This document shows positions 28,531 to 37,404 of a DNA stretch of 64,000 nucleotides, one piece after another. The notes under the pieces are model-generated. The model saw only the letters and a program-made list of their open reading frames with translations. It made no database searches and was not told the DNA's origin. Position numbers and translations under genes: made by a program. Origin of the DNA: Nitrospirota bacterium. Lineage in GTDB: Bacteria; Nitrospirota; Nitrospiria; Nitrospirales; Nitrospiraceae. How positions within the stretch are numbered: the first letter of the stretch is position 1; each line of letters starts with the position of its first letter. The stretch spans positions 74,430-138,429 of the forward strand of contig JBFLWP010000009.1 of assembly GCA_040757595.1 (NCBI GenBank). Reading direction: 5' to 3'.

Positions 28531-29124
28531 CTACATCCGCGGCTTCTGGTCCGTCTGGAGCCGTTCCCGGTCGAACTCTTCCAGCGGCAGGTAGTTCATC
28601 GGCAGTTCGAACAGGTAGTTCGGCAGCGTGTGCAGCTTCACGCGCCGGTACTCGACCTGCCACCGGCCGTCCTTGCGGGCCAGCTTCAACGGGAATCCGA
28701 TGTCGGTGGCGAGCCACTGGTAGTAGCCCACCTCGCGCGAGCCTTGCTGGACGGTGACTTCGTAGAGCGTGACCGGGTGGCCGTCCAGGATTTCCGTGCC
28801 GATTTCCTCACGGGCGACCTCTCCTTCAAGCTGGGCGGAGACTTTGGGCGTCTGTTCCGGATCGAAGGGGACACTCTTGAAGTGTTTCAGGCGGGACAGG
28901 AGCAACCACATGACGTCTTTGTCCTTGCGGACGATCGTCACGCTGACCGGTCCCGGGTCGTTCAGCTCGAGACGCCACATGTCGTCACGGTAGTAGATGT
29001 TCGCGTGGCGACTGTGCCCGTTGATCCGGGTGATCTGGTCGGCGACGAACTCCAGGGCATGAGAGACGGGGATGGATGAGAACCACACCGCGCATGCGAG
29101 CGCGACCGTCGGGAATGGACGCAT
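28531..29124 (-). CDS. Exported protein of unknown function, LolA-like fold possible
   Basis: The 197-residue protein has a signal peptide (MRPFPTVALACAVWFSSIPV) with cleavage likely after SHA. The mature part is mostly beta (FVADQITRINGHSRHANIYY, VTIVRKDKDVMWLLLSR, HPVTLYEVTVQQGSREVG). This resembles DUF4412 or LolA-type outer-membrane lipoprotein-handling proteins, but the assignment is weak. ATG 29124 is chosen for the signal peptide; the upstream extension is non-signal sequence. It is convergent with the ThyX-like gene and its 3' side carries a one-armed AGCTTTCAGCCATCGG repeat (28475-28508). Confidence 0.65.
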   Translation of the reverse strand: MRPFPTVALACAVWFSSIPVSHALEFVADQITRINGHSRHANIYYRDDMWRLELNDPGPVSVTIVRKDKDVMWLLLSRLKHFKSVPFDPEQTPKVSAQLEGEVAREEIGTEILDGHPVTLYEVTVQQGSREVGYYQWLATDIGFPLKLARKDGRWQVEYRRVKLHTLPNYLFELPMNYLPLEEFDRERLQTDQKPRM

Positions 29125-29437
29125 GGCCGTACCCTCCTCTCTCGGAGCGGCGAGGCCGAAGACTGTAGGCTCATCAAGAGGGAGAGCAAGTCTCGTACCC
29201 TGTGAATGCCAGCTCAACAGGGCCGCCTGGCACAGGCTGGGTCGGCTGGATTCAGGGCCGAGCCGGGCAATTCTTGCCGGACGCCGGGCCTTTTCCTGCC
29301 GTGAAGCGCGCCTCTCCCTCTTTCTTGAATTTCTCTGCCAGGGGGACTAGCATTTCATAGCGCAGGTACCCTTTGGCTCTGTTGGCTTCCGCTGCGCGAT
29401 GGACGCGCCGAAGTAGTCAGAAGGCGATGAGACACTC

Positions 29438-30414: not shown

Positions 30415-31455
30415 ATGCCAGACCACGCGGCACGCACCCGCGACGCCATTATTGGAGGGGACTGGAACGCGGTTCAGGCCGAGGCCGAGGCCTGGGTCTC
30501 AGGCCTGTCGGCAGCCGGCCGGCAAGACCCTCGGCCGCACTTTGCCCTGAACGTGACCCATCTTCTAAAGGGGGCATTCAAGGAAGCCTGGCGGCTCCAC
30601 TCGGTCTGCTTGCAGGAAGCGGCCGACATCGAAACGGTCCGGGGCTGGGTGGAGGCCCTGCTCAAAGAGCAGCCGGAGCAGGCCAACCTGCAGCTCGTGG
30701 CCGGGCTGTTCCTGTCCCAGTCGGGCCAGTCCGAACAGTCCGTTGACCGCTACAAGGAAGCCATCCGGCTGGATCCCCGCTCGGCCTACCCCCACTATTT
30801 TCTCGGCCAGATCCACGAGCGGGCCGGCCGGCCCGAGCAGGCGATCAAAGAGTATCGGGAAGCGGTGAAGCTGGCGCCCGCCTTCGCCCCGGCCCGGATG
30901 AACCTCGGCGTGGTCTACCAGCATCAGGGGCAGTTGGAGATGGCCATTCCCCAGTATCGGGAGGTCATCAAGCTGCACCCCGACGACGCGATGGCGCATG
31001 CGAACCTGGCCTGCGCACTGGCGGAGCAGGGGAAGATGGAGCCGGCGGTCCTGGAGTACAAGGAAGCCCTGCGGCTGAATCCCGGCGACGCGGAGGTGCA
31101 CTTCGCGCTCGGCGGCCTCTACGAGGGCCGCGGGCGCCTGGACCTGGCGCAGAGAGAGTATGAAGCGGCCTTGAAGGCCGACCCCAGCTTCGGGGCGGCG
31201 GAGACCGCGATCGGATGGATCCGCTTGGGCAAGGGCTGGCGGGAAGAGGCCTTCGAGTCCTTCAACCGCGCGCTCCGGGCGAATCCGGAGGACGCGCGGG
31301 CCTACCTCGGCATCGCCAAGGTGTACCTCCTCCGGGGCAAGCAGCAGTCGGCGATGGAGAACTACGCCCAGGCGCTGCGGCTGGAGAAGGACCCGGAGAA
31401 GAAGAACCAGATCATGAACGACCTGTTCCGCGAGGGAAACACCTGGGACGTGTGA
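30415..31455 (+). CDS. TPR-repeat protein
   Basis: The 346-residue protein is built of about eight 34-residue TPR units. Examples are SVDRYKEAIRLDPRSAYPHY, AIKEYREAVKLAPAFAPARM, AIPQYREVIKLHPDDAMAHA and LAQREYEAALKADPSFGAAE. TPR arrays mediate protein-protein contacts. No signal peptide or membrane helix is visible, so it is probably cytosolic. The partner is unknown. The following gap contains GTGACGAGCGGCACGGAGC-type repeat units and then a hairpin. Confidence 0.85.
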   Translation: MPDHAARTRDAIIGGDWNAVQAEAEAWVSGLSAAGRQDPRPHFALNVTHLLKGAFKEAWRLHSVCLQEAADIETVRGWVEALLKEQPEQANLQLVAGLFLSQSGQSEQSVDRYKEAIRLDPRSAYPHYFLGQIHERAGRPEQAIKEYREAVKLAPAFAPARMNLGVVYQHQGQLEMAIPQYREVIKLHPDDAMAHANLACALAEQGKMEPAVLEYKEALRLNPGDAEVHFALGGLYEGRGRLDLAQREYEAALKADPSFGAAETAIGWIRLGKGWREEAFESFNRALRANPEDARAYLGIAKVYLLRGKQQSAMENYAQALRLEKDPEKKNQIMNDLFREGNTWDV

Positions 31456-31752: not shown

Positions 31753-33207
31753 ATGAAACCGGAAAGCCGATTCGTGGCGGGGCTGCTGGTGCTCGGCGCG
31801 GCGCTGGTCGCAAGCGCCTGCGCGAGTCCTTTGCATACCGCTGCTGAGCGCGGCGATGTCCAGGCCGTACGCACGCTGCTTGACCAGGGAGCCCAGGTGA
31901 ACGAAGAAGGGGATCCTGGCGACAAATGGCTTCATGCGACGGCCCTGCACTGGGCCGCGGCGAGGGGGCACCTGCAGGTCATGGAGCTGCTACTCGATCG
32001 CGGGGCCGATGTCAACTTCAGGATAGCCCATGACCAGACTCCTCTCCACTGGGCGAGTGGAGCCGGCCAGCTCAAGGCTGTACAGCTCCTGCTCGATCGC
32101 GGCGCGGACGTAAACGCGAAGAATGCGTATGGTGATACCGCGCTGCACGATGCGGCCAAGCACGGGCACGCGCAGGTTGTCCGGCTCTTGCTGGAACGAG
32201 GCGCCATGGCCGGCGACACGAACAGGTATGGGGAGACACCCGCCGCTGTCGCGAAAGGAGAGGGCCACCCGGCCGTGGCCCAGATGCTGGAGCAAGCAGA
32301 GGCGCGTCAGCTTGGAACCGCACCGTTTGTGGCGTCCTCTCCCGAATCGGCCTCGTCCGTCCCTCCAGTTTCAGCCAGGGTTCAGGACAGCGATGTGGAC
32401 CAGCCGCCGGTTGCGGGACGAACCAAGCAGAATCGTTATGCGGTCGTGGTCGGGATCGAGCAGTACCGCACCAAGCTGCCGAAGGCCGACTTCGCCGCTC
32501 AGGACGCCAGGGTCATGGGGGCCTATTTGACGAAGAGCATGGGCTTCTCGGAGGAGAACGTCGCGATCCTGGTGAACGAGAACGCCACGCGCACGGACAT
32601 GGAAAAGTATCTGGAACACTGGCTGCCCAACCGCGTCGAGAAAGACGGCACCGTGTTCGTCTACTATTCCGGGCATGGGGCGCCGAATCCCAAGACCGGC
32701 GACGCCTATCTCGTACCCTATGACGGGGACCCAAGCTTCGTGGAGGCAACCGGCTATCCCTTGAAGCGGCTCTATGAGCAGCTTGGCAAACTGCCGGCCA
32801 AGGAGGTCGTCGTCCTGCTCGATTCCTGCTTTTCCGGCGCCGGCGGCCGGTCCGTGATCGCCAAGGGCATGAGGCCGATGGTGCTTTCGGTCGAGAACCC
32901 GGTGCTGGCCGGCGGGAAAACCGTGGTCCTCGCAGCCAGCAAGGGCGATCAAGTCTCCAGCACCTATGATCAGAAGGGCCACGGGCTGCTCACCTATTTC
33001 TTCCTCAAGGGACTGCGGGGCGAGGCGGACGCGAACAAGGACGGATCGGTGGACCTGGCCGAGGTCTACGAATATCTGAAGCCGCAGGTGGAGCGCACCG
33101 CCAGGCGGGAGTTCAACAACGATCAGACGCCGCAATTGCTCGGCAGCCCCGGCCTGCTGTCCAAGGGCGTCCGCCTAGTCGAGCGCGCCGGTACATCGAA
33201 ACCGTAA
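31753..33207 (+). CDS. Exported ankyrin-repeat / caspase-like (C14) lipoprotein
   Basis: The 484-residue protein has a signal ending in a lipobox-like VASAC (about residue 24), so it is probably anchored outside the cytoplasm. Four ankyrin repeats follow: LHTAAERGDVQAVRTLLDQG, ALHWAAARGHLQVMELLLDR, PLHWASGAGQLKAVQLLLDR and ALHDAAKHGHAQVVRLLLER. After a linker the C14 domain carries catalytic histidine in VYYSGHGAP and cysteine in LLDSCFSGAGGRS, both present. It should be a Lys/Arg-specific orthocaspase-type protease or its relative. The ATG has GGAAG six bases upstream. Substrate and trigger are unknown. Confidence 0.88.
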   Translation: MKPESRFVAGLLVLGAALVASACASPLHTAAERGDVQAVRTLLDQGAQVNEEGDPGDKWLHATALHWAAARGHLQVMELLLDRGADVNFRIAHDQTPLHWASGAGQLKAVQLLLDRGADVNAKNAYGDTALHDAAKHGHAQVVRLLLERGAMAGDTNRYGETPAAVAKGEGHPAVAQMLEQAEARQLGTAPFVASSPESASSVPPVSARVQDSDVDQPPVAGRTKQNRYAVVVGIEQYRTKLPKADFAAQDARVMGAYLTKSMGFSEENVAILVNENATRTDMEKYLEHWLPNRVEKDGTVFVYYSGHGAPNPKTGDAYLVPYDGDPSFVEATGYPLKRLYEQLGKLPAKEVVVLLDSCFSGAGGRSVIAKGMRPMVLSVENPVLAGGKTVVLAASKGDQVSSTYDQKGHGLLTYFFLKGLRGEADANKDGSVDLAEVYEYLKPQVERTARREFNNDQTPQLLGSPGLLSKGVRLVERAGTSKP

Positions 33208-33743: not shown

Positions 33744-35180
33744 ATGAAGACCCTGCTCCTGAACCCGCCCTCGTTCGAGCAATTCGACGGGGGGGCCAGC
33801 GCACGCTACCAGGCGACGCGGGAAGTGCGTTCCTTCTGGTATCCCGTCTGGCTCGCGTACCCGGCCGGCTTGATCAAGGACAGCCGCCTCGTGGACGGGC
33901 CGGCACAGGGGATCACACCCGAGGACACCGTCGCCATCGCGCGCGACTACGAGTTCGTCGTGATCTTCACCAGCACGGCGGGGTTCCGGAGCGACACCCG
34001 CTTGGCCGAAGCGATGAAGGCGGCCAAACCGGACCTGAAAATTGCGTTTGTGGGCCCGCACGTCACGGTCAAGCCGGAGGAGAGCCTAACGGCCTGCCCT
34101 GCGGTGGATTTCGTGGCCCGGCGGGAGTTCGACTATTCGGTCGCCGAGTTCGCCTGGGGCCAGCCGCTGGAGACAATCGCCGGCATCAGCTACCGGAAGG
34201 ACGGGAAGATCGTGCACAACCCGGACCGGCCCGCGATCGAGGATCTGGACGCGCTGCCCTTCGCCGTGGACATCTACAAACGCGACCTGGACCACCGAAA
34301 GTACAACATCCCGTACCTGCTCCACCCCTACGTGTCCTTCTATTCCTCGCGCGGCTGTCCTGCCCTCTGCACCTTCTGCCTGTGGCCGCAGACCATCAGC
34401 GGGCACCCCTGGCGGACCCGCAGCGTGGACAACGTCGTGGCCGAGGTAAAGAAGGCCCTGGCATACTTCCCGGACATCAAGGAGATCTTCTTCGACGACG
34501 ACACGTTCCCCTGGGCCAAGTCCCGGGCGCTGGAGGTCTGCGAGGCCTTCAAGCCGCTGAAGTTCACCTGGTCGTGCAATTCGCGCGTGCACACCGACTA
34601 CGAGACCCTCAAGGCGATGAAGGACGCCGGCTGCCGGCTGCTGGTCGTGGGCTTCGAGTCGGGCGACGACACGATCCTGAACAACATCAAGAAGGGGGCG
34701 ACGACGGCTCAGGCCATCGAGTTCATGAAGAACTGCAAGAGGGCCGGGCTCGTCGTGCACGGAGACTTCCAGATCGGGCTGCCGGGGGAAACCCCCGAGA
34801 CCATCGAGAAGACGATCGAGTTCGCCAAACGGCTGGACCCGGAGACGATCCAGGTCTCGATTTCGCACCCCTACCCGGGCACCGAGTTCGACAGCTACGT
34901 GCGGAAGCACGGGTACATGACCGACGACGAGATGACCGACGAGTGCGGCCACCAGCTGCCCAACATCCACTATCCGGGCCTCGATCGCCGCTACATGGTG
35001 GAGATGGTGGAGCGGTTCTACGAGCGCTATTACTTCCGCCCGAAGGTGATTTTCCGGTTCCTGCGCCGCATGGCCGCCGATTCGTACGAGCGCCGCCGGC
35101 TGCTCTCCGAAGCGCGGGAGTATTTTTCGACGCGAGCCAAGCGGCATCGCTTCGCGCGGACCGAAGAAGTCACCGCCTAA
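33744..35180 (+). CDS. hpnJ: Hopanoid-associated B12-binding radical SAM protein HpnJ
   Basis: The 478-residue protein begins MKTLLLNPPSFEQFDGGASA, and its N-terminal cobalamin-binding-like domain runs to about residue 170. The radical SAM cluster motif is GCPALCTFCLW (CxxxCxxC). From family knowledge HpnJ converts the glucosaminyl head group of bacteriohopanetetrol to the cyclitol ether, after HpnI and HpnK. A TATAGT box at 33677-33682 lies upstream, and GGAGG precedes the ATG. The gene opens the hopanoid side-chain cluster. Confidence 0.88.
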   Translation: MKTLLLNPPSFEQFDGGASARYQATREVRSFWYPVWLAYPAGLIKDSRLVDGPAQGITPEDTVAIARDYEFVVIFTSTAGFRSDTRLAEAMKAAKPDLKIAFVGPHVTVKPEESLTACPAVDFVARREFDYSVAEFAWGQPLETIAGISYRKDGKIVHNPDRPAIEDLDALPFAVDIYKRDLDHRKYNIPYLLHPYVSFYSSRGCPALCTFCLWPQTISGHPWRTRSVDNVVAEVKKALAYFPDIKEIFFDDDTFPWAKSRALEVCEAFKPLKFTWSCNSRVHTDYETLKAMKDAGCRLLVVGFESGDDTILNNIKKGATTAQAIEFMKNCKRAGLVVHGDFQIGLPGETPETIEKTIEFAKRLDPETIQVSISHPYPGTEFDSYVRKHGYMTDDEMTDECGHQLPNIHYPGLDRRYMVEMVERFYERYYFRPKVIFRFLRRMAADSYERRRLLSEAREYFSTRAKRHRFARTEEVTA

Positions 35181-36234: not shown

Positions 36235-37404
36235 GTGTCTTCTCTCATGGCCCTGCTGCAGTGGCTTTGCCTGGTCCCCGTGGTCGGGGGGGCCGTCTAC
36301 GGGCTCCTGACCGTCCCGACGGCTCTGCGCTTCCGCCGGAAGGCCATGGCTTCCGCCGCGCCTCCTGCCCGGACTTGGCCGCCGGCGACCGTGCTCAAGC
36401 CGGTCTACGGGCTGGAAAAGAACCTCAGGACCAACCTGCGCAGCTTCTGCCTGCAGGACTACCCGGACTATCAGGTCGTCTTTTCCGCCCAGAGGGACCG
36501 CGATCCGGCCATCCCGCTCCTCTACGAGCTGCAGCGGGAGTTCGGAGCCGGCAGGGTCTCGGTCGTCGTGAAGAGCGTCCAGGCCGGCATGAACGGGAAG
36601 GTCAACAATCTGCTGGGCGGCCTGACCGAAGCCCGCCACGACGTTCTCGTCATCAGCGACAGCGACATCCGGGTCGGGCCCGACTATCTGAAGGCTGTCG
36701 TGGCGCCGCTGGCCGACCCGGCGGTCGGGTGCGTCTGCGCGCCGTTCAAGGCGGTCTGCGCGGACCGCTGGTACGAGAAGCTGGAGCTCCTCAGCATGAA
36801 CGCGGACTTCCTGCCGAGCGTGGTCTTTGCGCTCGCGACCGGAGCCTCGGGCTACAGCAACGGGCAGTCCATCACGATCCGGCGCGAGACCCTCGAGGCG
36901 ATCGGCGGGCTGGAAAGCCTCGGCGACTATCTGGTGGAGGACTACGAGATCGGCCGGCGGATCTGGGAGTCCGGCAAAAAAATGGCCGTGATCCCCTACC
37001 TGCTCGAAGCGACGGTGGATTTGCAGTCCGCCGGCCAGTGGTGGAGCCATCAGGTGTACTGGGATCAGAACACGCGCTTCGCGAGGCCGGGCGGGTTCTT
37101 CGCGACCGTGTTCACCCGATCCGTGCCCTTCGCCCTGCTCTATGCGCTGCTGCGCCTCCTGGACCCGGTCGGCCTCGCGGTTCTGGCCGCCGCCCTGACG
37201 GTGCGGCTCGCGACGGGGGCCCTGGCCCTGGCGGCGTTCGGCGACCGGGAGGGACTGCGCAGCCTGTGGCTGCTGCCCGTGCGCGACGTGCTGGGGCTCG
37301 CGTCCTGGGCGCTGGCGTTCACGCAGCGCACCGTGATCTGGCGCGGGGCGGAGTTCGTGCTGACCCGCAACGGGCGGCTGGTGCCCCGGGAGGCGCGGTC
37401 GTGA
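36235..37404 (+). CDS. hpnI: Hopanoid-associated glycosyltransferase HpnI
   Basis: The 389-residue GT2-type, ceramide-glucosyltransferase-like enzyme has an N-terminal helix, then ATVLKPVYGLEKNLRTNLRS. The donor-binding AGMNGKVNNLLGGL, the metal motif SDSDIRVGPDYL, VEDYEIGRRIW and the acceptor-side QVYWDQNTRF follow. C-terminal membrane helices complete it. HpnI adds an N-acetylglucosamine to bacteriohopanetetrol. GTG 36235 has AGGAG six bases upstream. HpnK, the deacetylase expected to act between HpnI and HpnJ, is absent from this window. Confidence 0.85.
   Translation: MSSLMALLQWLCLVPVVGGAVYGLLTVPTALRFRRKAMASAAPPARTWPPATVLKPVYGLEKNLRTNLRSFCLQDYPDYQVVFSAQRDRDPAIPLLYELQREFGAGRVSVVVKSVQAGMNGKVNNLLGGLTEARHDVLVISDSDIRVGPDYLKAVVAPLADPAVGCVCAPFKAVCADRWYEKLELLSMNADFLPSVVFALATGASGYSNGQSITIRRETLEAIGGLESLGDYLVEDYEIGRRIWESGKKMAVIPYLLEATVDLQSAGQWWSHQVYWDQNTRFARPGGFFATVFTRSVPFALLYALLRLLDPVGLAVLAAALTVRLATGALALAAFGDREGLRSLWLLPVRDVLGLASWALAFTQRTVIWRGAEFVLTRNGRLVPREARS

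Follow-up and report, generated by a model that had tools for sequence, protein, structure and literature searches.

What would a caspase-like protease, joined in one chain to a protein-binding ankyrin array and preceded by an apparent lipoprotein signal, do outside the bacterial cytoplasm? The question is raised by a 484-residue protein encoded on a 64,000-nucleotide stretch of a Nitrospirota genome (GCA_040757595.1, contig JBFLWP010000009.1; hereafter the window), for which an earlier note had suggested a role in envelope stress, interaction with other cells or regulated self-lysis. The targets, place and timing of cleavage by the abundant bacterial caspase homologues are mostly unknown, and the family to which this protein belongs offers handles on them: a predicted envelope location, a fixed catalytic domain and, in relatives, a recurrent candidate partner. 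Nitrospirae are rich in such homologues, with 1.11 per 1000 proteins according to passages of an earlier survey (PMC3501461).

The chain begins with a predicted lipoprotein signal peptide, and the ankyrin array starts almost directly behind the lipobox cysteine, C23; a flexible linker leads to a Peptidase_C14 domain that reaches near the chain end (Table 1). Pfam matched ankyrins over about residues 27–180 (Ank_2, E = 9.9e-35; four Ank stretches), and the count of four repeats given in the earlier note stands as a Pfam count; the AlphaFold model, however, has five helix pairs within residues 26–186, which puts the structural count at five. The Peptidase_C14 match (PF00656) scored 61.3 bits, above the curated cut-off of 21.4, and NCBIfam caspase_w_EACC1 (NF047832) scored 102 bits, below its cut-off of 140. 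Both the ankyrin and the C14 units were confidently modelled in the full-length chain (mean pLDDT 85.7), with a pTM of 0.61 that does not fix their mutual placement; modelled alone, the C14 unit reached a pLDDT of 85.5 and a pTM of 0.88. The closest solved fold to this C14 model was metacaspase 4 (Z = 24.6, rmsd 2.3 over 223 residues), followed by MALT1 (Z = 22.9) and the Geobacter protein GSU0716 (Z = 21.8), and the alignments with metacaspase 4 and MALT1 spanned its whole length. By its predicted model, the C14 domain has the caspase fold.

Table 1 Features of the ankyrin-C14 gene and its conserved neighbours (window coordinates; residue numbers refer to the ankyrin-C14 protein)
Feature	Position	Strand	Basis
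Gene for predicted ankyrin-C14 lipoprotein, 484 aa	31753..33207	+	ORF (ATG at 31753, stop at 33205-33207), Pfam; orthologues in the same gene order in three further genomes
Predicted type II (lipoprotein) signal peptide, residues 1-22	31753..31818	+	Sequence and heuristic test with control
Codon of lipobox cysteine C23, predicted lipidation site	31819..31821	+	Conservation
Ankyrin array, residues 24-186	31822..32310	+	Pfam and model; fast-diverging between orthologues
Pro/Ala/Ser-rich flexible linker, residues 187-224	32311..32424	+	Low pLDDT at 192-207
Peptidase_C14 (caspase-fold) domain, residues 228-462	32434..33138	+	Pfam, model, fold comparison
D251, expected S1 pocket residue	32503..32505	+	111/111 complete relatives among matches listed; Yca1 alignment
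Catalytic H308 (SGHG)	32674..32676	+	110/111 complete relatives among matches listed, partly by selection because one scan pattern contains the catalytic His motif
D357, two residues ahead of the catalytic Cys; second acidic residue expected in the S1 pocket	32821..32823	+	110/111 among matches listed
Catalytic C359 (DSC)	32827..32829	+	109/111 among matches listed, remaining two gaps
Disordered loop behind catalytic Cys, residues 361-379	32833..32889	+	pLDDT <50; basic residues conserved
EF-hand-like loop of C14 domain, residues 426-437	33028..33063	+	Between two helices in model
Upstream TPR protein, conserved neighbour	30415..31455	+	Synteny in orthologous loci
Downstream hpnJ (hopanoid biosynthesis), conserved neighbour	33744..35180	+	TIGR03471 734 bits, cut-off 577.6

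Both catalytic residues lie in the same chain, as the earlier note had claimed, and judged from its sequence the domain has the His-Cys dyad of prokaryotic caspase homologues (orthocaspases) in H308 and C359. Metacaspase 4 cuts after Arg or Lys and MALT1 after Arg. Aligned to the yeast metacaspase Yca1, D251 falls on the Asp of the C-x-N-D-A motif of metacaspases. In Trypanosoma brucei metacaspase 2 (TbMC2), Asp95 and Asp211 accommodate basic substrate residues, as a passage of PMC6426788 describes. D251 and D357 are the expected counterparts of these two residues, with Arg or Lys binding expected in turn, and we infer that the window protein cleaves after Arg or Lys. The loop directly behind C359 keeps the basic residues R366, K371 and R374, and we would guess that it is a self-cleavage loop. 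Farther along, the segment DANKDGSVDLAE fits the EF-hand pattern DxNxDGxxxxxE between helices of the model; Pfam EF-hand models stayed below cut-off (EF-hand_1, 11.4 bits vs 25.4). Among the matches listed, this loop is canonical in only 38 of 103 rows, the window protein included, and altered or missing elsewhere, which rules out calcium control as a family-wide trait; such control through the loop is possible in the clade of the host genome.

At the N-terminus, a basic start and a hydrophobic core are followed by ASA-C23, and this lipobox behind a signal peptide has, by sequence, the pattern of a bacterial lipoprotein. C23 was invariant in all 15 lipoprotein-type relatives compared and at least 90% conserved across 48 ankyrin-C14 proteins among the matches listed, and the hydrophobic stretch ahead of it varies between relatives. 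As a control, we applied the same crude lipobox test to 34 long ORFs of the window that do not overlap one another; two were positive, one of them this gene. Among the matches listed, the strict test was positive in 46 of 52 complete ankyrin-C14 proteins and a relaxed one in 2 more, the rest comprising 3 ordinary Sec-type signals without a lipobox and 1 uncertain start. The ASAC of the window copy is weaker than the usual LxGC, and with Ala rather than Leu at −3 the signal might be cut by signal peptidase I instead; three orthologues carry ASGC, LPGC and ANGC. The residue after the lipobox cysteine (+2) is Ala in 31 of the 46 proteins positive in the strict test and Asp in none of them (among the matches listed), which under the E. 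coli Lol rule favours outer-membrane placement, and the signal peptidase II (LspA) and LolA families were found in the host genome. Lipobox conservation thus supports the lipoprotein signal proposed in the earlier note and, as probable, its placement of a caspase-like protease with a protein-binding array outside the cytoplasm; export was not rejected, and the protein is probably lipid-anchored in the cell envelope.

How widespread is this architecture? We scanned named genomes by two patterns and kept the best 80 of at least 588 stretches; from at least 79 loci we collected 120 C14 ORFs, set aside 9 that were cut at an end or had no N-terminus before C14, and retained 111. The scan yielded at least 52 complete ankyrin-C14 proteins, and both catalytic residues are kept in 51 of the 52 listed, so the loss of the catalytic pair that the earlier note had envisaged among homologues did not occur. 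A fold alignment comprised 47 of the 51 ankyrin-C14 rows that have both residues, and a further alignment comprised 102 of the 111 rows, chosen for identity above 45% and both catalytic residues. Most of the listed loci bear titles of Nitrospira, Nitrospirae, Nitrospirota and Deltaproteobacteria groups; a few are from Nitrospinota, and Elusimicrobia and Nitrosomonadales account for one each. Ankyrin-C14 genes often stand in tandem among them. In the host's taxonomic family, a profile search at E 1e-60 matched 25 of 98 genomes, four of them with 9–12 matches (counts that mix ankyrin and non-ankyrin members), and we therefore regard the distribution as patchy.

The host genome itself (3.37 Mb, 36 contigs, 15 PF00656 matches) holds 16 C14 proteins without visible breakage by profile and protein search; locus L050 runs off its contig. 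All 16 have an export-type N-terminus, the strict lipobox test is positive in 11 (L043 among them doubtful), and both catalytic residues are kept in 13, having been lost in L052, L053 and L055. Ankyrin-C14 proteins make up five of the 16, and three of these five are encoded in tandem on a single contig (L051). In others the partner of C14 is an FGE-sulfatase domain, TPRs or a part that has no assignment, and weak matches to GNA1162-like or CARDB models, below cut-off, occur in some. The uniform export-type N-termini of this set, together with the number of ankyrin-C14 proteins in relatives, contradict, for this lineage, the earlier view that the combination is unusual. L053 and L055 are lipoproteins with C14-like domains that have lost the dyad residues and show weak, sub-cut-off CARDB matches; they are possibly inactive partners. 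At L046, a C14 gene is split into two ORFs (contig C2, 7325-7768 and 7801-9099); it looks like a disrupted gene of the signal peptide-C14-FGE-sulfatase type, of which an intact copy lies nearby.

We compared how the two halves of the protein have evolved. Among the matches listed, 262 pairs of proteins share at least 75% identity in C14 with an ankyrin array in one partner and an unrelated N-terminus in the other; in the extreme pair the C14 domains are 92% identical and the N-termini have no detectable similarity. The C14 domain terminates the chain in nearly all of the relatives listed. Three orthologues occur in the same gene order elsewhere (L056, L057 and L063; L057 and L064 are one assembly), and these are 90–92% identical to the window copy in C14 and 44–60% identical in the ankyrin array. 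Across the orthologue comparisons, dN was 0.052–0.065 in the C14 domain (dS 0.83–1.16), 0.104–0.206 in four flanking genes of the same loci (dS 0.65–1.30) and 0.33–0.49 in the ankyrin array, where dS was near or beyond saturation. By these dN values conservation is highest in the protease and lowest in the array among the pieces compared, and part of the apparent ankyrin turnover could be repeat misalignment because ankyrin dS is (nearly) saturated. In the array dS and dN are both high, a pattern that speaks for replacement or recombination and not for selected point mutations. We do not claim positive selection on the ankyrins: dN/dS was 0.11 and 0.16 in the two window-copy comparisons with finite dS (the third being saturated), and recombinational replacement fits better. 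Third-position GC is 0.72 in the ankyrin part, 0.84 in the C14 part and 0.88 and 0.91 in two neighbours; the lower value of the ankyrin part agrees with recombinational replacement without proving it.

The earlier note had found no partner gene among the neighbours, and this stands for the window, where our search for one found none and a promoter and terminator scan upstream of the gene gave nothing useful. The TPR gene and hpnJ keep their places in the orthologous loci, but this is a matter of synteny alone and nothing ties them to proteolysis; the hpnJ-hpnI order behind the ankyrin-C14 gene is likewise kept there, and the hopanoid gene hpnI lies at 36235-37404 of the window (327 bits, cut-off 310). 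The minus strand of the window also encodes, at 28531-29217, a small exported protein, judged by eye to be similar to outer-membrane lipoprotein-sorting proteins. For the family the claim did not hold: an exported DUF4384-type protein is encoded near ankyrin-C14 in 18 of 41 loci of relatives among the matches listed, and in 17 of the 41 its gene lies directly downstream of a C14 gene on the same strand. The spacing is mostly a zero gap or overlapping open frames, the overlaps being upper bounds because frames were taken stop to stop. Three members tested matched DUF4384 at 73–92 bits (cut-off 27), one of them with an additional FlgT_N match below cut-off, and passages of two papers report DUF4384 fused to other caspase homologues (PMC6426788, PMC7475262). 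The window copy has no DUF4384-type neighbour; the closest homologue in the host genome (contig C13, 19284-20075; 40% identity) belongs to another gene cluster, with no C14 gene in the 19 kb read. That part of the contig (19-34 kb; L148, 3973-18650) holds a cluster of the exported DUF4384-type homologue, similar proteins and predicted lipoproteins. Near ankyrin-C14 genes, a nucleotidyltransferase-like ORF, so labelled by eye, occurs in 7 of the 41 loci among the matches listed (L077, L081, L090, L092, L093, L112 and L126). We rejected a defence system: PADLOC returned only generic caspase and ankyrin-type models and a weak MzaA match, and the neighbourhood gives no support.

Our best reading is that of an envelope lipoprotein protease with Arg/Lys specificity and interchangeable recognition modules, a statement that we consider about evenly balanced between right and wrong. 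On this reading, the lipoprotein would probably be anchored in the outer membrane, facing the periplasm, where the ankyrin array on its flexible linker could bind a particular envelope protein or complex. Binding would bring C14 domains together or to a substrate, and the His-Cys protease would then cut after Arg or Lys, either in itself, at the basic loop behind C359, or in a neighbour; the EF-hand-like loop might add a calcium requirement in the clade of the host genome. Paralogues of one genome, with the same protease and different recognition modules, would act as parallel receptors with one output. A more ambitious version, which we put forward tentatively and hold to be possible rather than probable, is an envelope receptor repertoire in which a single lipid-anchored, Arg/Lys-specific caspase-like output is recombined with changing recognition modules and, in relatives, acts with a DUF4384-type substrate or regulator. 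With the same reserve, ankyrin arrays would turn over at fixed chromosomal sites as the protease stays nearly constant.

Export and an intact active site would also suit an envelope housekeeping or nutritional protease whose N-terminus merely recruits substrates, with no signalling or switch. Paralogues with different N-termini could then mean different substrate ranges, and a passage of PMC4933709 suggests that metacaspases of freshwater Betaproteobacteria may degrade protein outside the cell. Against this, the C14 domain is more constrained than the four flanking genes tested, the pocket is expected to accept basic residues specifically and not a broad range, and the tandem arrays and recurrent neighbour look like a system; we consider such a protease rather unlikely. 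Regulated self-lysis or programmed cell death, of which the protein would be an effector, is widely discussed for bacterial caspase homologues (in passages of PMC3501461 and PMC7475262), and a protein in the envelope could reach cell-wall enzymes. The twelve commonest neighbour clusters among the matches listed, however, contained no lysis gene, pore former or cell-wall hydrolase recognisable by eye, and sixteen copies in the host genome seem many for a suicide device, so that we find this role improbable.

We give still less credence to a toxin against neighbouring cells of the polymorphic type with a C-terminal caspase domain. Passages of PMC3482391 place C-terminal caspase toxins, Sec export and ankyrin repeats among polymorphic-toxin parts, and the position of C14 at the chain end in nearly all relatives listed fits. 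The pattern of variation is nevertheless reversed, with the C-terminal domain conserved and the N-terminus variable, the recurrent neighbours of the ankyrin-C14 loci listed included no recognisable immunity-like gene, and no toxin leader domain was recognised in the protein. An uncleaved N-terminal anchor, leaving the protein cytoplasmic or tethered to the inner membrane, would accommodate the weak −3 Ala, but the conservation of a cysteine at the exact lipobox position behind varying hydrophobic cores makes it very unlikely. Least credible of all is a catalytically inert scaffold of caspase fold: three host-genome paralogues (L052, L053 and L055) have indeed lost dyad residues, and the dyad rate of Nitrospirae was low, 57%, in passages of the earlier survey (PMC3501461), yet both residues are intact in the window copy and in 51 of the 52 listed relatives, and the pocket aspartates are likewise retained.

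If the envelope protease with interchangeable recognition modules is borne out, it would represent caspase-like signalling outside the bacterial cytoplasm, an extracytoplasmic counterpart of cytoplasmic sensor-caspase systems. Given the fixed catalytic domain, one specificity measurement would serve many genes. Because these genes abound in uncultured Nitrospirota and sulfate-reducer-type Deltaproteobacteria, the question concerns common environmental bacteria. Our search of the open-access literature found no account of a lipoprotein ankyrin-caspase family, of sensor exchange or of the DUF4384 neighbour, and the parts of the prokaryotic caspase homologue literature examined hold no account of a lipoprotein subfamily with exchangeable N-termini. 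We regard the window protein as a member of a large and mostly undescribed family with one conserved protease on many sensor modules.

Among known systems, the protein is closest to the prokaryotic caspase homologues (bacterial metacaspases or orthocaspases), with which it shares the C14 fold, the His-Cys dyad and both acidic pocket residues and which, like it, are often fused to protein-binding repeats; localisation data are absent for most of those described, whereas lipoprotein anchoring is predicted here. Plant metacaspase 4 and human MALT1 are the closest solved folds but are eukaryotic and not lipoproteins; metacaspases use a calcium site other than the EF-hand-like loop, and MALT1 has death and Ig domains. 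One named protein bears the locus tag Desti_1504, which we take to be that of Desulfomonile tiedjei. It has the same two domains, ankyrin and Peptidase C14, in one chain, and is named in passing in a footnote to a supplementary legend that gives no signal, family or function (PMC3932732). Fusion of caspase homologues to repeat domains was already known, and many of their N-terminal helices may be signal peptides, according to passages of PMC3501461. Bdellovibrio Bd3460 also has exported, periplasmic ankyrin repeats that bind envelope enzymes, but it has no protease domain and acts as an inhibitor, as passages of PMC4686830 describe; by analogy it is an earlier example of enzyme binding by periplasmic ankyrins. 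The caspase domains of polymorphic toxins are likewise exported and C-terminal, in passages of PMC3482391, but those toxins join a conserved N-terminus to a variable C-terminal toxin beside an immunity gene, an arrangement that the window family reverses.
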